Assembly: GCA_947626225.1 (NCBI GenBank)
Contig: CANQRH010000005.1
Coordinates: forward strand, 1-64,000
Origin: Candidatus Gastranaerophilales bacterium
GTDB lineage: Bacteria; Cyanobacteriota; Vampirovibrionia; Gastranaerophilales; Gastranaerophilaceae
DNA length: 64,000 bases
Direction of reading: 5' to 3'
Shown: positions 2,712 through 27,850 of the stretch, one piece after another
How positions within the stretch are numbered: the stretch's first letter is position 1
How the letters are laid out: each line of letters opens with the position of its first letter
Notes under the pieces: generated by a model
Database searches by the model: none
Told to the model about the DNA's origin: nothing
The model's input: the letters and a program-made list of their open reading frames with translations, nothing else
Program-made: the position numbers and the translations under genes

Positions 2712-3041
2712 TTATCTTCCGTATGAGAATGAACTTTGAATATTTTTATCACGCATTGCAACTGCTGATTCGTATTCTGTTTCTATCATCTTGAGTCTTA
2801 CATTATATTGGGCTAATTGAGCATCCAGTTTTTGTTCAAGAACTTTCAATTTCGCAACACGCTGTTGTAAAAGTTTTGTTGTCGGAGATTCGGGACTATA
2901 ATCGTTTCCGACTGCCATCAAATCACTCACTGATTGCGATAACCCCATTTTCGACTGAGTAATCAGTGTTATTTTGTACTCCAAGTCAAGCCTTGCTTGT
3001 TGAAGATACATTACTCTGATTTGTGATACAAGTAATCCCAT
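2712..3041 (-). CDS. Small coiled-coil protein, SQxR/NIxS family
   Basis: This 109-residue, almost all-helical protein has no signal peptide or membrane segment. The N-terminus (MGLLVSQIR...L...EY) and C-terminus (KNIQSSF) match those of the 416-residue protein at 4324-5574 and, more weakly, the 110-residue protein at 20090-20422, so the three look like a paralogous family. The start has a good ribosome site (AAAGGAAA). It lies 11 bases after the gene at 3053-3325 and probably shares its transcript. No function is recognised. A long helix pair bracketing a variable middle is reminiscent of filament or hook-type export substrates, but that is conjecture. Confidence 0.7.
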   Translation of the reverse strand: MGLLVSQIRVMYLQQARLDLEYKITLITQSKMGLSQSVSDLMAVGNDYSPESPTTKLLQQRVAKLKVLEQKLDAQLAQYNVRLKMIETEYESAVAMRDKNIQSSFSYGR

Positions 3042-3052
3042 TTTAATTTCCT

Positions 3053-3325
3053 TTATCTGGTTTCGTTGAGATTGTTACCCCTTAAAAATGTGTGTTGATT
3101 ATTTTCTGCAATCAACTGTTCCATTTTCTGAAACTGATGGCGGTGATAATTCAATCTGTATTGCGCCATTTTTCGTTTCTTGTTCATTGTCAAAAACTCT
3201 TTGATACCTTCCACAAAAGAATTTGACATTGATTTTAAAGGGTTTTTCCTTATCAGGAAGTTTTTTGAATATATTAAAAAGTCCATCAACCTTTTTATAT
3301 TCATCTCTAAAGTATCACGAAGCAT
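3053..3325 (-). CDS. Hypothetical basic helical protein
   Basis: This 90-residue, Lys/Arg/His-rich protein (pI clearly basic) is not recognised. A strong ribosome site (AAGGAG, about 5 bases before ATG) and tight spacing to the next gene (11 bases) support expression. It is predicted helical, with no signal peptide and no metal-binding motif. It may be the first gene of a two-gene unit with the coiled-coil protein at 2712-3041, since a terminator at about 3483-3508 separates it from the upstream genes. Confidence 0.6.
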   Translation of the reverse strand: MLRDTLEMNIKRLMDFLIYSKNFLIRKNPLKSMSNSFVEGIKEFLTMNKKRKMAQYRLNYHRHQFQKMEQLIAENNQHTFLRGNNLNETR

Positions 3326-3482
3326 TTTTCTCCTTACACTTTAGACCTACATGTATATTAAAACATCGGGTATAAAATAATTGCCTTTTAACGTAATATT
3401 TTATTAACATGTCTTAATATTTCAATCTAAAGTTTTTTTATATATATCGGATTAAATCCGATAAACTTTAATAAAATTAAAA

Positions 3483-3508
3483 AACTTGTAAACAATTGTT
3501 TACAAGTT
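3483..3508 (-). terminator. Rho-independent terminator overlapping a stop codon
   Basis: A perfect 26-base palindrome (AACTTGTAAACA / TGTTTACAAGTT) contains the stop codon of the gene at 3500-4315. On the minus strand it is followed by TTTTTTAATTTTATT. A second palindrome, ATCGGATT-A-AATCCGAT, lies about 20 bases further downstream (about 3447-3463) and may be a back-up stem or an operator for the gene at 3053-3325. Confidence 0.75.
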
Positions 3509-4315
3509 CTGAATAGCTTTGCTGTCGCTTTCTATTGACTCTTTGAGCATTTTCTTTACGACATCGCCCTGCGTATCAAGCATTTTGCATACGGTTTCAA
3601 TGTTTCTTACTTTATTGGAAAGTATTGTATCGGCGTTTGCCGTGATGTTTCCCGTAACATTTTGATAAGCCGCAAGTGCTGCCGAAGTTGTACCCTGCAT
3701 CAAATTACCCATTACTAAGGCGGGAAGCCCGAATTCTCCCAAATACGGCGCCGCAGCCTGCATTATACCGCCCCAGCCCGATATTATACCCGCAACGGGC
3801 AACACAAGATTTTTCATCGAAAATCCGTAACCGTTTGCAGCTCCCAAGCCGTACGCCGCTGCACTTGCAACGTCCGCAATTCCGCCTATACCTGATGCAA
3901 AACCCGTGGGAGTTCCCGATGTGCCCCAGCCGTTTACTATTGATGCCGCACCGCCTGTTGCAAAACCGTTTAATCCCCATGATATCGGTGCCGCACCGCC
4001 GGGAAATCCCGAATAATTGTATAAAGAATCAAGCCCGAAAGATGAACCTCCGTTAAACGGTGAACTGTAAGATGTTCCCGGAACGTTCATAGATTCTGAT
4101 GCGCCGAATACGGTTGAAAATGCCGATGGCGAAAGTAAACTTGCCAGATTGTATAAAAATCCGCCGGTGGCTTCAAACCCGGTTCCCATACCGCTTCCGG
4201 ATACGGTTAAATCCCGCAGCTTGTCATAAGTTTCCCATAATTGAGCTTTTGCATCGGAGCCTGCTGAGCTGAATTTGTTTGCTATTACCAGATAACTGTC
4301 ATTTTTATATGCCAT
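3500..4315 (-). CDS. Gly/Ala-rich hypothetical protein
   Basis: This 271-residue protein is not recognised. A short polar N-terminal helix (residues 1-40) is followed by a long Gly/Ser/Ala-rich middle (about 41-215) with many aromatic residues and some hydrophobic stretches (LVLPVAGIISGWGGI), then a helical C-terminus (about 220-271). There is no Sec signal. It sits 8 bases downstream of the 416-residue coiled-coil protein, has a GAGG ribosome site, and is certainly co-transcribed with it. The low-complexity Gly/Ala composition flanked by helices suggests a structural or exported protein rather than an enzyme; this is inference. Confidence 0.65.
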   Translation of the reverse strand: MAYKNDSYLVIANKFSSAGSDAKAQLWETYDKLRDLTVSGSGMGTGFEATGGFLYNLASLLSPSAFSTVFGASESMNVPGTSYSSPFNGGSSFGLDSLYNYSGFPGGAAPISWGLNGFATGGAASIVNGWGTSGTPTGFASGIGGIADVASAAAYGLGAANGYGFSMKNLVLPVAGIISGWGGIMQAAAPYLGEFGLPALVMGNLMQGTTSAALAAYQNVTGNITANADTILSNKVRNIETVCKMLDTQGDVVKKMLKESIESDSKAIQNL

Positions 4316-4323
4316 AAAAACCT

Positions 4324-5574
4324 CTATTCAAATGTTTTAAATGTTGATTCAATATTCTTATCAATAACCTTTTTGACTGCTTCCATTTCGGTTTGGAGTG
4401 CTTCCTGCTCGGTATCAAGCTGTCTTAATCTGAGTTCAAGCGTTCTGTCCTGTTCCTGAATTTTCTTGGTTTTTGCGTTGATATCAGCTATTCTCTTTTC
4501 ATAAACCTGCATATCATAATTATACTGGTTCATTGCATCTTCATAAGCCGCTTCATCGGTTATCGTTTCCGTGCTCAAAGCGTAAGTTGCGCTGTTGTCT
4601 TCGAATCTTATTGATTGCGGACGTCCGGATTCATCCAAATCCACAAACGCTTTTTGCTGTAATTCGATTTTGGTTTTAATGTCCTGAGCATAGTATTGTC
4701 TTAATTTATTCTGATTTTCGGTCGGTTTGGTCGGATCCGGAGCACTGTCTGCGGAAGCTCTTAAATCTTCTAAAGTCGCAAAATATGTCTGCCCTTGAAA
4801 TTCCCAAGTATAAATATTTTCCGAAGTTGCTATGCCTTCTGCGGGAAACTCTTTGCAAATCTGTTCATAAGCAGCTTTCATCGTGGAGTCGGTCGGATCG
4901 TATGCGTGAACTTCAGCGTTCCCGACATATGCCGGAACATCTTGCTTTATAGTGTAATTTACCAAATCTTTTTTGCCGTCCGAAGCATTTTTTAAACTCG
5001 TCAGGTCCGTGAAATAAATTTTCCCGTCATCTCCGGTGTATGTATAAACATTTTCAACTTCAATTTTTGCAAAATCCGGATAATCCTTTAATATTCTGCC
5101 GTAATCCTGTTTCATCTGTTCATTCGTAGGATCATATTTTGTTACGGGCTGACCGTTTACGGTGTAATTTTCATCATCAGTTTTCTCAACCTGCTCTTTC
5201 GGTACGGTTCCTTTTTCCGCACGCGTATCAAAAGCTACCTGAGGATTGGTTTTTAGGCTCATAATTCCCGTAAATACATCTGAATAATGATAATGCGTTA
5301 TTAAATAGTTGTATCCGTCCGGATCATTAATTAACTCGGACATGTTGGAAATTGTTTCCGTATTAAGCCCGTCCTGATATGAATATTGAAGTGTTGTAAA
5401 GTCCTGAGTGCTCGGTGCTGTCGGAACTTCCAGCGCAAGTAAGTCATTAAAAGTGTTTGCACTCTGATTTGCCAGTGCCGTACGCGCTTGGTTTACCTGC
5501 TGTCCTTCATATTCTACGTTGGTTTTTCTTGCCGTCAAGCCTAAATATCTGGCTTGTGATGCTGCCATACCCAT
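4324..5574 (-). CDS. Coiled-coil SQxR/NIxS family protein with a duplicated central domain
   Basis: In this 416-residue protein, residues 1-48 (MGMAASQARYLGL...EYEGQQVNQAR) and 335-416 (long heptad helix ending KNIESTF) bracket a variable insert. The insert contains a tandem repeat: residues about 145-197 and 223-273 both read YDPT...MK..Y..I.K.(Y/F)P...ENxYT...G..YF..L..L. No signal peptide is present. The helix-insert-helix plan resembles flagellin or hook-filament proteins in layout, not in recognised sequence. It has a strong ribosome site (GAGGAG) and heads the minus-strand run with the gene at 3500-4315. Relatives in this window are at 2712-3041 and 20090-20422. The function is unknown. 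Confidence 0.7.
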   Translation of the reverse strand: MGMAASQARYLGLTARKTNVEYEGQQVNQARTALANQSANTFNDLLALEVPTAPSTQDFTTLQYSYQDGLNTETISNMSELINDPDGYNYLITHYHYSDVFTGIMSLKTNPQVAFDTRAEKGTVPKEQVEKTDDENYTVNGQPVTKYDPTNEQMKQDYGRILKDYPDFAKIEVENVYTYTGDDGKIYFTDLTSLKNASDGKKDLVNYTIKQDVPAYVGNAEVHAYDPTDSTMKAAYEQICKEFPAEGIATSENIYTWEFQGQTYFATLEDLRASADSAPDPTKPTENQNKLRQYYAQDIKTKIELQQKAFVDLDESGRPQSIRFEDNSATYALSTETITDEAAYEDAMNQYNYDMQVYEKRIADINAKTKKIQEQDRTLELRLRQLDTEQEALQTEMEAVKKVIDKNIESTFKTFE

Positions 5575-19929: not shown

Positions 19930-20109
19930 AAAGTATATGCATACTCCGGGGCGAATAAGCAGGCTTCGCCTGTTTTTTGCATTTTCTCGAAAGTATATGC
20001 ATACTTCGGGGTGAAGGAGTAGGCTTTGCCTATTTTCTGCATTTCCTCTAAAGTATTTGCATACTCCGGGGTGGAGGAGTAGGCTATGCCTACCCGCCGA
20101 GCAGTTGAA
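19930..20109. repeat. Three tandem 60-bp repeats
   Basis: Units start at 19930, 19990 and 20050, exactly 60 bases apart. Each holds AAAGTATATGCATACTCCGGGG (with small changes), then GGAGTAGGCTTTGCCT, a short palindrome. A more diverged unit may precede them at about 19870. Unit length is a multiple of three, so reading frames stay open through them on the minus strand. The last unit overlaps the 3' end of the gene at 20090-20422. There is no spacer diversity, so this is not a CRISPR array. Confidence 0.75.
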
Positions 20110-20422
20110 GCTGACAAGCAGATTTGATGTTGTCTTTGACAAGGTTTTTCAAACTTGATATTTCGTTTTCAATCAAACTTATCTGTGAGTCAAGCGAATC
20201 TTGTCTGGTTTCCAAGTAGGATTCTTCTCTTTGTAATGCGATGTAGTTCGGATCATCTTCCAAATCTCCGGAGCTGTCATCATCGTCATACAATTGTGCA
20301 ATGTCTCCCATTTGTCTGGTAACATAGTTACATCTGCTCATTACCAGAGTTTGTTCGAATTGCAGCTGGCTTTTTTGAAGTGTGAATAAGTTCTTCTGTG
20401 CGTCAATTGCTAAAAAAGTCAT
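20090..20422 (-). CDS. Small coiled-coil protein, SQxR/NIxS family (diverged copy)
   Basis: This 110-residue helical protein without signal peptide has a long N-terminal helix (MTFLAIDAQKNLFTLQKSQLQFE), an acidic break (DDDDSSGDLEDDP, about 45-57) and a second heptad helix ending LKNLVKDNIKS. The layout and the terminal DNIKS resemble the proteins at 2712-3041 and 4324-5574. The start has a strong GGAGAG site. The stop lies inside the 60-bp tandem repeats. It sits against the direction of folD and ftsH and separates the MesB-like block from the CFeSP-like block. No function is recognised. Confidence 0.6.
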   Translation of the reverse strand: MTFLAIDAQKNLFTLQKSQLQFEQTLVMSRCNYVTRQMGDIAQLYDDDDSSGDLEDDPNYIALQREESYLETRQDSLDSQISLIENEISSLKNLVKDNIKSACQLQLLGG

Positions 20423-24322: not shown

Positions 24323-25108
24323 TCAGATGATTTTTGCGTATGAAAGGAAGTAATCGGATATAATATTAACCAACATCGGCAAAATCCAAATCATTATTGC
24401 CGCACCAAGTACGGGTTTAAACAGAAAGCTTAACTGGAAAACGTTTACCTGAGGAGCGGTTTTTGAAATTACCCCGAGAATAATATCCTGACCTAATGTC
24501 GCAAGCAATACGGGTGAGGCTATTTGCAATCCCATATACAATACATTCGAGGACAAATCAACCAGATAATCAAGGTTTACAAGCTCCGTTAACGGGATTA
24601 TTGTCGCATCAAGTGCAAATATATCAAAACTGTGTATAAATGCCTGCAAAAGCCAGTAAATTCCCCCTAACTGGATAAAAATTATTATTCCGAGAAGTGA
24701 AAAACATTTTCCGACAATAGATACCTGTGAAGATGTTGTCGGATCCAATACCATTGCGGATGAAAGTCCCATCTGCATATTTACCATATCTCCGCCCGCT
24801 TCTATTGCCATAAGTATTAGTTGTGCAATATAGCCTATCATGGCACCTACAACCATATTTAATAAAATAGACAGCACAAAAGAATCTTTAATTATGGTCA
24901 CATCGGGTTTTACCGTACAGGTTAACACTATTGTCATTAAAAGTGCCAGTGCAACTTTTATTGTTCCGGGCATTTCTTTTCTGTTAAATACGGGTGCAAA
25001 TCTGAAAAAACCGAGTACTCTGGCAAATATAAATATTCCCGCCCCCAAATAGGCATTGAGCATGGGAAACATTTTCATTAACTCTGCAATTATATCGTCC
25101 ATAAGCAC
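24323..25108 (-). CDS. fliR: Flagellar export apparatus protein FliR
   Basis: FliR is an inner-membrane component of the flagellar type III export gate, forming the helical FliP5-FliQ4-FliR1 core. It has 261 residues, the usual length, with about six hydrophobic segments. Family motifs are ARVLGFFRFAPVFNRKEMPGTIKVALALLMT and QLILMAIEAGGDMVNMQMGLSSAMVLDP, plus ASPVLLATLGQDIILGVISKTAPQVNVFQLSFLFKP. It is the last gene of the minus-strand fliM/N-O-P-Q-R unit, which continues from pilus genes upstream. Confidence 0.92.
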   Translation of the reverse strand: MLMDDIIAELMKMFPMLNAYLGAGIFIFARVLGFFRFAPVFNRKEMPGTIKVALALLMTIVLTCTVKPDVTIIKDSFVLSILLNMVVGAMIGYIAQLILMAIEAGGDMVNMQMGLSSAMVLDPTTSSQVSIVGKCFSLLGIIIFIQLGGIYWLLQAFIHSFDIFALDATIIPLTELVNLDYLVDLSSNVLYMGLQIASPVLLATLGQDIILGVISKTAPQVNVFQLSFLFKPVLGAAIMIWILPMLVNIISDYFLSYAKII

Positions 25109-25159: not shown

Positions 25160-25651
25160 TTATGTTCTGTTAAGTATTGTATTGGTTTCAACAAAATCCG
25201 GTCTCGGCATCGGAGTTCTGGGGCTGGGAAGGTATTTCATTTTTTGTTGATTATCTATAAACGGAACTTTGCCCGGATTTTTCATAATTTCATTTATTGT
25301 AGGTGTGACGTTGAATTTGTCGCTCATTTCTTTTTCAAAAGGAGATGTGTATTTATAATAATTGGAAGGAAGAGCGTATGAATCATTTTTTGAAACGAGG
25401 TTAAAAGCAATTGCCATTCCGTCATTGACAAATCCTTTTAAGAGGTTTATAAAACCTATTCCGCCTATTACAATTACGAGGAACACGCCGAGAATTTTAG
25501 GTGCCGCTGCAATTGTCTGTTCCTGAACCTGTGTTACAGCCTGCAAAATACCTACAACCAAACCTATACCCGCCGCAACAAGTACGCACGGCATTGATAT
25601 CGTGAGCATTAATAAAAATCCTTTTGCTAAATATTCTACTAAAACTTCCAT
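25160..25651 (-). CDS. fliQ: Flagellar export protein FliQ with long C-terminal extension
   Basis: Residues 1-88 are an ordinary FliQ with two membrane helices (VLVEYLAKGFLLMLTISMPCVLVAAGIGLVVGILQAVTQVQEQT ... FLVIVIGGIGFI). FliQ normally ends there (about 89 residues), but this protein runs on to 163 residues. The polar tail is rich in Pro, Asn and Tyr (SNYYKYTSPFEKEM ... LPSPRTPMPRPDF). The frame has no break, so a fused extra segment or read-through of an old spacer is seen, not a frameshift. FliQ tails face the periplasm or gate, so interaction with export partners is possible. Genes fliP and fliR flank it. Confidence 0.88.
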   Translation of the reverse strand: MEVLVEYLAKGFLLMLTISMPCVLVAAGIGLVVGILQAVTQVQEQTIAAAPKILGVFLVIVIGGIGFINLLKGFVNDGMAIAFNLVSKNDSYALPSNYYKYTSPFEKEMSDKFNVTPTINEIMKNPGKVPFIDNQQKMKYLPSPRTPMPRPDFVETNTILNRT

Positions 25652-25660
25652 TGTTTAACC

Positions 25661-26302
25661 TCAATTATAACTTGTGACAAGCCCCTGAACAATTAACGCC
25701 CATCCGTCCACGGCTATAAATATCAGCAGTTTAAACGGCAGCGATATAATAGTCGGCGACAGCATAAACATACCCAGTGCAAGCAAAATGTTTGCAACCA
25801 CAAGGTCTAACACGATGAACGGTACAAATATTATAAATCCGATTTCAAATGATGTTTTGAGTTCGCTTATAATAAATGCGGGTGCTATCTGCCAAATTGT
25901 TAGTTCATCAGGGGATTTTGGCGCTTCACCCTTTGACATCTCGACAAAGAAAGCTAAATCACTTTCCCTTGTCTGCTTCATCATAAATTCTTTTAACGGC
26001 TTTGAACCCTCGTTTACCGCTTCAATTATATTTTGATTTTGTTGGTACGGAATTGAGCCGAATTCATACATTTTCTGGAATGTTGAACCCATTGTATAAA
26101 AAGTTAAAATCATTGCCAATCCTATGATTACCAATGACGGGGGAACCTGCTGGGTGCCAAGAGCGGTTTTTAACATTGAAAATACGATGACAAATCTTAA
26201 AAAACTTGTCATACAGCAAAAAACCAGCGGTAACAATGAAAATAATGTCATTACCAGCAGCATTTGTATTACGGGATTTAAATCTTTTAATACTGTGTCC
26301 AT
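25661..26302 (-). CDS. fliP: Flagellar export apparatus protein FliP
   Basis: FliP is the main pore-forming subunit of the export gate. It has 213 residues, shorter than many flagellar FliP proteins (about 245) because no cleavable signal peptide is present. Motifs are SFLRFVIVFSMLKTALGTQQVPPSLVIIGLAMILTF, the periplasmic segment about 85-140, then LKTSFEIGFIIFVPFIVLDLVVANILLALGMFMLSP. It lies one base downstream of the FliO-like gene and 9 bases before fliQ. Confidence 0.94.
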   Translation of the reverse strand: MDTVLKDLNPVIQMLLVMTLFSLLPLVFCCMTSFLRFVIVFSMLKTALGTQQVPPSLVIIGLAMILTFYTMGSTFQKMYEFGSIPYQQNQNIIEAVNEGSKPLKEFMMKQTRESDLAFFVEMSKGEAPKSPDELTIWQIAPAFIISELKTSFEIGFIIFVPFIVLDLVVANILLALGMFMLSPTIISLPFKLLIFIAVDGWALIVQGLVTSYN

Positions 26303-26303
26303 T

Positions 26304-26660
26304 CTAATTCCTTATATTATTAATTATGTTTTTAAAAACTTTTTTACTTTCTTTTTTCATTTGAAAATCAATTATATCAGGCAAATCATCGATTTTTGAA
26401 TCAATTTTTTTATTATCATCGTCCAGTTTTGAGATTAAACAAGTTCTGTCAACATCGGATGCGACAAGAAATTTTTCTTCACCTGCTCTGATTACATAAA
26501 GGTTTTTACGCGGCGCAAGATTAATGCAGTCCTCAACATTTAAAAATTTGGATTTTGAAGATGCTCCGGCTGAAAAATTCTTGTATACAATGACGGCAAG
26601 AAAAATAATTCCCACCATTGCGGTTGTATAAACTATAAAATTAATAAGATATCCGCTCAT
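26304..26660 (-). CDS. fliO: FliO-like flagellar biosynthesis protein
   Basis: FliO helps assemble FliP rings and is specific for flagellar systems. This 118-residue protein has one membrane helix (about 7-27) and a cytoplasmic FliO signature (CINLAPRKNLYVIRAGEEKFLVASD, residues about 47-70), followed by a Lys/Asp-rich tail. Its position directly before fliP is the usual one. Its presence argues that the export genes are flagellar and not an injectisome. Confidence 0.82.
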   Translation of the reverse strand: MSGYLINFIVYTTAMVGIIFLAVIVYKNFSAGASSKSKFLNVEDCINLAPRKNLYVIRAGEEKFLVASDVDRTCLISKLDDDNKKIDSKIDDLPDIIDFQMKKESKKVFKNIINNIRN

Positions 26661-26668
26661 AATCCCTC

Positions 26669-27850
26669 CTAAATATCTTCATCTTCAAGTTCAAAGTCGC
26701 TGTAATCAAATTCTTCTTCTTCATCTTTAGTTTCCGGAGCCTGCTGTTCTTCCTGCTGTTGCGGCTGATTTTCTTCCGTAACTGCCGTTTCTTCCGAAGC
26801 GGCAGTCTCGACAGCGTCTGTCTCCTGAATTTCTTCATCCAAACTTTCTTTACCGGGTGCTATTACTTCTTCCACTTTTACTCCGTAGCGATCATTTACA
26901 ATTACAAGTTCGCCTCTTGCAACCGCTTTATCTTCTACCCTCAACGTGATTTTATTGTCATATATGGATGTAAGATCAACAACAAGACCTTCTTCAATGT
27001 TTTTCAGTTCGCCGAGCGAAATTTTAACCGTATCAAATTGGGCGCTCATTTCAACTTCAATTGTGTCCCAAAGTTTAGCGTTACTGTCCATATCTTCTTC
27101 TCCTTCATTTTCGTTAAACGGCATAACTAATCCCAAATTAGGATTAATTTTTATATCTGTTTCGTAATCTTTAAATTTCAATCTCATACGGGTGCTGTCA
27201 CTGTTATCAAACACGACAACATCGCCTGTTTCAATATTTTTAATATCTATGAGTTTAAATTTTGTTGTTCCGGCTACTATTGTTACGTCAATCATACTGG
27301 ACTTAAAATTATCGTTTGTAAATTTTTCCCCTTTTGCGGTAACAATTTCAGGTTTCAAAAGTACTTCCGGAAGGGTTATAATAAATTTTGAAACAGTATT
27401 GGTATCAATATCTTTCAATAGGTATGTAAGATGTACAACGTCAAAATTCGTCCGTTTCAATGTCGGGGGAGCGGGAGATATATTTTTTGATATCAGATTG
27501 TACATATAATCATTGAAAGATGTTATGATTTTTGCTTCCAAATCCGTAAGTTTGTTTAGATTAAACCTTGAATTAGGCTTGCCCAAAGCTCTGTCCAATA
27601 TTGTGCTTATTGTTTTTTCGGAGCTTCTGAAAAATATATCATGATTTTTATCAATCATTATTTTTGTAACAAAATAAGAATCCTTATCCATTAACGGATT
27701 TATATTTTTGCTTACTCCTAAGAGAATAAATTGTAATCCGGGCAGGAAAAATTCATCACCGGCGTTCTGCACAAGCGGTGTGTAAGCCTTTGAAAACCAG
27801 TCGTACTGCGTATACAACTCTTTATTGTCCGGTGAGTTAATATCTGTCAT
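26669..27850 (-). CDS. FliM/FliN-type switch protein with two SPOA domains
   Basis: In this 393-residue protein, residues 1-180 resemble a diverged FliM/FliY-type middle domain (no CheC motif is clearly seen). Residues about 185-245 are a weak first SPOA domain. Residues 260-330 are a good FliN-type SPOA domain (WDTIEVEMSAQFDTVKISLGELKNIEEGLVVDL...GELVIVNDRYGVKVEEVI). A Glu/Gln-rich acidic tail follows (331-393). Two SPOA domains in one chain recall SctQ of injectisomes and SPOA heterodimers of FliM-FliN. With FliO next to it, a C-ring protein that merges FliM and FliN roles is most likely. It starts the flagellar set, 94 bases after pilC. Confidence 0.75.
   Translation of the reverse strand: MTDINSPDNKELYTQYDWFSKAYTPLVQNAGDEFFLPGLQFILLGVSKNINPLMDKDSYFVTKIMIDKNHDIFFRSSEKTISTILDRALGKPNSRFNLNKLTDLEAKIITSFNDYMYNLISKNISPAPPTLKRTNFDVVHLTYLLKDIDTNTVSKFIITLPEVLLKPEIVTAKGEKFTNDNFKSSMIDVTIVAGTTKFKLIDIKNIETGDVVVFDNSDSTRMRLKFKDYETDIKINPNLGLVMPFNENEGEEDMDSNAKLWDTIEVEMSAQFDTVKISLGELKNIEEGLVVDLTSIYDNKITLRVEDKAVARGELVIVNDRYGVKVEEVIAPGKESLDEEIQETDAVETAASEETAVTEENQPQQQEEQQAPETKDEEEEFDYSDFELEDEDI

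Follow-up and report, generated by a model that had tools for sequence, protein, structure and literature searches.

The window, meaning here the whole 64,000-nucleotide stretch that was analysed, lies at the beginning of contig C5 in a genome of 1.59 Mb (G000), and its proteins have their nearest named relatives in Candidatus Gastranaerophilales / Melainabacteria metagenome-assembled genomes. As an earlier note on this DNA had proposed, three open reading frames on the minus strand encode proteins (416, 109 and 110 residues) that resemble one another beyond chance. They lie in the window together with the genes of an export gate, as follows:

2712..3041, minus strand: 109-residue core-form member, a predicted helical hairpin (residues 2-45 / 53-108) without a middle
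3053..3325, minus strand: 90-residue protein, gene 1 of a two-gene operon with the 109-residue member
3445..3470, minus strand: sigma-28-type promoter-like site, TAAAGTTT-N10-TCCGATA, 119 bp before the gene at 3053-3325
3500..4315, minus strand: Gly/Ala-rich hydrophobic protein of 271 residues, 8 bp after the gene for the 416-residue member
4324..5574, minus strand: 416-residue member with predicted N-helix (2-46), beta-rich variable middle and C-helix (341-415); orthologues in other genomes
20090..20422, minus strand: 110-residue divergent member adjoining a folD-like gene
24323..25108, minus strand: FliR, export gate (PF01311, 4.5e-53)
25160..25651, minus strand: FliQ, export gate (PF01313, 7e-18)
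25661..26302, minus strand: FliP, export gate (PF00813, 1e-68)
26304..26660, minus strand: FliO (PF04347, 1e-5)
26669..27850, minus strand: FliM/FliN C-terminal-domain protein of 393 residues (PF01052, 6.5e-21)

The 271-residue protein matched no known family, and its arrangement with the 416-residue gene is kept in genomes G018 and G014. Near the window's first position, at 482-2221, a type IV pilin-like N-terminus is combined with YadA-head repeats and an endosialidase-chaperone (Peptidase_S74) domain.

BLASTP of the 109-residue against the 416-residue protein gave a match at each end (E = 7e-5 and 2e-4), and end profiles built from paralogues matched the 2712-3041 product with E values of 7e-4 (N-terminal) and 3e-6 (C-terminal). 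The 20090-20422 product scored 19.8 bits (E = 2e-5), the best of 500 shuffles reaching 8.1 bits, and its probable orthologue in a relative occupies the equivalent position beside a folD-like gene. The N-terminal motif that had been assigned to all three proteins is missing from that encoded at 20090-20422, which begins MTFLAIDAQ and counts as a divergent member only.

All three proteins are related as claimed, the third distantly, and the family is larger than the three: at least 12 members are encoded in the window's own genome (nine long, two small and one further, divergent one of 153 residues at C3:286545). When 60 N-terminal and 75 C-terminal residues were compared among the nine long members, the ends were alike in 36/36 pairs (E < 1e-3) and the middles in 6/36. 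The variable middle is thereby confirmed; the upper limit of 290 residues given for it earlier does not hold, since the longest middles in this genome have about 545 residues. Among 28 orthologues of the 416-residue protein, mean column conservation was 0.98 in the N-terminal end, 0.72 in the middle and 0.96 in the C-terminal end. Family members are dispersed through the genome, outside the type-B operon described below, which counts against the reading favoured in the end. One long member (L055:8913-10559) lies directly downstream of terminase- and portal-like phage genes.

Cargo proteins would be expected to have middles with no relationship from one subgroup to another, as is the case here (alike in 6 of 36 pairs); together with the dispersal of the genes, this suits a reading in which the proteins are secreted effectors or adhesins, with the ends providing an export signal and chaperone binding, without polymerisation, and the variable middles acting as the active domains. 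Against such a role stand a core form that has no middle whatever and is kept at 109 residues in several copies, and the near invariance of both ends, which is more readily explained by packing than by a cleavable or N-terminal signal. We regard effectors or adhesins as an unlikely account of the family, though one to be taken seriously.

Members from three further families of the class (f9, f14 and f15) have no middle, and those read are 109 residues long, with one of 111. The 2712-3041 protein matched a profile of 109-residue members from other orders at 5e-43, its own row being included in that profile, and its alignment to those members is almost free of gaps, with an identity of about 30%. 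Because f9, f14 and f15 members lack middles and the 2712-3041 protein aligns in this way, the 109-residue hairpin is taken as the core form and the middles as insertions, which are largest in Gastranaerophilales. At the level of sequence comparison, a predicted helical-hairpin core of 109 residues is shown to be kept across orders, with unrelated middle domains inserted in Gastranaerophilales.

In the window's genome, a TAAAGTTT-N11/12-GCCGATAA site stands 36-47 bp before the start of eight of the nine long paralogues. A strict form of the site, TAAAG[AT]TT-N11/12-GCCG, was observed 12 times in 281 kb against 0.4 expected. Counted over all loci, with the 416-residue group left out, the site preceded 18 of 31 long members (58%) and 26 of 1226 other open reading frames (2%; Fisher 2e-20). 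Operons of the 3053-3325/2712-3041 type, encoding the 90- and 109-residue proteins, carry the site 119-133 bp upstream of the start in 26 of 35 orthologous cases. The strict pattern misses relatives in which the -10 element reads GTCGATAA. The 416-residue group and the 109-residue genes of other orders are mostly without a sigma-28-type site, a point against the reading favoured below. A similar site is found at the type-B rod operon in genome G044. The sequence of these sites is the consensus that marks late flagellar genes for sigma-28 (FliA). A sigma factor of the SigF/FliA class, closest to SigF, is present in the approximately 43% of the genome that was read.

Sigma-28-type sites also stand on the genes for a 719-residue protein with RHS-repeat and weak EF-hand matches (L272:2841), a 139-residue protein (L066:13831) and an HD-domain protein (L055:10783), which are possible further members of the regulon. 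That non-axial genes, for HD-domain and EF-hand/RHS-like proteins, share this type of site is a further point in favour of effectors or adhesins.

The earlier note had also placed a flagellar export apparatus in the window. fliO-P-Q-R are indeed encoded there, as part of a second, type-B system and not of an ordinary flagellum. FlhA proteins of the order fall into two well separated clades, with a support of 99 for the type B clade. Type A FlhA (about 850-890 bits to PF00771) adjoins FliPQR and FlhB and occurs in genomes that usually have flagellin as well; type B FlhA (about 695-740 bits) occurs throughout the order, and FliI splits into the same two types. All 35 genomes of family f1 that were searched as near relatives have FlhA, with type B as the sole full-length class, and Flagellin_N matched in none of them; PF00669 likewise had no match in the window's own genome. 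Some other f1 genera carry type A as well.

The type-B operon, separate from the canonical flagellum, reads flgF-flgG-flgB-flgC-SLT-fliE-fliF-X-fliH-flhA, with SLT encoding a transglycosylase, followed in one genome by fliI, and its order is largely kept in families f6, f7 and f9. In the window's genome the operon is split into fliE-fliF-X-fliH-flhA, flgC-flgB-flgG-flgF, fliI and the fliO-P-Q-R group of the window. FlhA, FliP, FliQ, FliR, FliI, FliH, FliF, FliE and rod proteins are all present among the components of the apparatus, and FlhB was not located in the roughly 43% of G000 that was read. Gene X (L261:9191-10363, L050:8051-9070) keeps its position between fliF and fliH, where FliG would be expected; the copies scanned for a FliG torque domain, among them those of G000 and G045, yielded no Pfam match to FliG. 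At about 175 kb on contig C3 of G000 (L049:9112-10572) a stand-alone protein of 486 residues resembles the cytoplasmic domain of FlhA (FHIPEP positions 309-653); most genomes of the order encode a counterpart of comparable length, and it may be a platform of its own on which export substrates dock.

In 240 genomes of the class, the family was found in 163 and FlhA homologues in 186, and every credible family match fell in a genome with FlhA homologues. The earlier note had named as refuting evidence an occurrence of the family in related genomes lacking any flagellar or type III export genes; no credible case emerged, the family being nested within the FlhA-positive genomes. The sole match in an FlhA-less taxon (G129) was a 36-residue stretch with a stop and was rejected as a fragment. 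Each of the five taxa with the family that were checked (f1, f6, f9, f14 and f15) has type-B FlhA. FlhA in f10, f11 and f12 lies outside the type-B clade, and there the family is absent even with the core profile, which returned nothing credible from 29 genomes of families f8 and f10-f13 (best E = 0.07). Two genomes, G132 and G233, have the family together with FlhA C-terminal-like matches only (best 3e-48 and 1e-47); an assembly gap is the likely reason for the missing full FlhA. Part of the co-distribution may be explained by one shared ancestry instead of function. The close linkage of the 416-residue gene to flhA in its own genus (11-13 kb) was set aside as evidence because it is not seen in f9, where the members are dispersed.

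Searches of the members against Pfam, NCBIfam and PDB sequences returned no relative, only weak coiled-coil noise, and none of the members scanned matched a flagellin family in Pfam or NCBIfam. Profile comparison by hhalign gave probabilities under 1% to relatives' flagellin and FlgL profiles and no homology to flagellin, FlgL, FlgK, FlgE or rod proteins, these profiles being small. A FliJ/SctO-like stalk was rejected on an hhalign probability of 4% and the wrong copy number, an hhalign match to FlhA spanning 12 columns was an alignment-tail artefact, and a WXG100-like identity found no Pfam match. Phage origin was rejected, as the lone match to a phage record is probably a mislabelled bacterial contig and a scan of viral contigs found no relative. 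That record, MW495066.1 ('Microcystis phage MaAM05', 274 kb; L078), encodes SecDF, AcpS, ScpA, ScpB and Smc in addition to a family member, and is apparently a contig of a Gastranaerophilales chromosome under a wrong label. No paper in the literature searched describes a second FlhA system or the coiled-coil family, which we regard as previously unnamed.

The helices and the beta-rich middle listed above for the 416-residue protein come from an AlphaFold2 model with a mean pLDDT of 87, and the hairpin of the 109-residue protein was modelled in the same way. Foldseek alone gave no significant match for either model. After VIA-align re-ranking, flagellar axial chains (FliD, hook-junction/cap, flagellin, rod and hook) made up most of the best 23 rows for the 416-residue model at Z 6.2-9.9, the leading ones at 7.5-9.9, where values of 8-10 are middling for helical proteins and below the trustworthy level for long helices; the top row was an unrelated axonemal coiled coil (Z 10.2). 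The axial neighbours of this model support the reading as flagellar substrates without proving it. The best Foldseek rows for the 109-residue model were the IpaB coiled coil and YscO, every E value lying above 0.02.

The 109-residue model is a generic hairpin with PspA, prefoldin, Rad50, IpaB and YscO among its neighbours. This generic shape, the lack of a signal peptide reported in the earlier note and a sigma factor closest to SigF, which is not flagellum-specific, would all be compatible with a coiled-coil or scaffold family of the cytoplasm whose link to motility genes is no more than a common regulon. We consider such a family distinctly improbable, given its nesting in FlhA-positive genomes and its beta-rich or long inserts (up to about 545 residues), which stand between paired helices, diverge fast and look surface-exposed.

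The plan and the promoter class are also shared with flagellins, and the best structural neighbours are mostly axial proteins, as would be the case if the members were homologues and not analogues, in other words true flagellins or hook-associated proteins that have diverged strongly. The members scanned showed no flagellin match in Pfam or NCBIfam and no PDB sequence match, the hhalign values to relatives' flagellin and FlgL were those given above, and flagellins coexist with the coiled-coil family in other families of the order; true homology appears very unlikely. The earlier proposal of flagellin-like export substrates, made from the protein plan, is partly supported: distribution, promoters, structural neighbours and the flagellin-less apparatus argue in its direction. 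Homology to flagellin or hook-junction proteins is undetectable.

We favour the reading, at a probability of roughly 0.6, that the family members serve as late substrates for a second flagellar type III apparatus (type B), one without flagellin, in Gastranaerophilales and some related orders. They would probably be filament-like subunits. A FliA/SigF-type sigma factor would transcribe the family genes late, and the FlhA/FliPQR gate would export their products through a FlgB/C/F/G-like rod. The helical ends could then pack into an axial polymer that leaves the middle domains on its outside, in the manner of flagellin D0/D1 and its outer domains, and the outcome would be a short or decorated surface filament replacing the rotating flagellin filament.

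Like flagellin (FliC) and hook-associated proteins, the family has conserved N- and C-terminal helices and an outer domain that is variable or absent; it also has sigma-28-type promoters and occurs in genomes with a flagellar gate, as they do. Minimal flagellins consist of the helical core only (PMC10256154). In contrast to flagellin and hook-associated proteins, to which no sequence homology was detected, the family has a 109-residue core and many dispersed paralogues, and occurs where flagellin is absent. The 109-residue helical hairpin is also like injectisome needle, translocator and stalk proteins (SctF, IpaB, YscO/SctO). In contrast to these, the family has several to a dozen copies per genome and long insertions, and the type-B apparatus has flagellar rods and FliE, unlike injectisomes.

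More tentatively, and with the odds somewhat against it, these observations may describe a second flagellum-derived, sigma-28-controlled organelle of Gastranaerophilales and related orders that is without flagellin or a recognisable FliG, its filament being built from a new family not homologous to flagellin, with a 109-residue two-helix core into which unrelated surface domains were inserted many times. Incomplete sets of flagellar genes have been reported for Melainabacteria, MEL.A1 among them, and taken as flagellum loss or reduction (PMC3787301, PMC4040986). In contrast, the remaining FlhA here forms a separate clade and occurs beside the canonical flagellum in other families. For these common gut bacteria, the present results point to an old, conserved second apparatus with late proteins of its own, instead of decay. 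If the family does form filaments, it would be a flagellin-like fibre made from an unrelated subunit; such a fibre would lack flagellin as an immune signal, and its variable surfaces could meet the host or other microbes.
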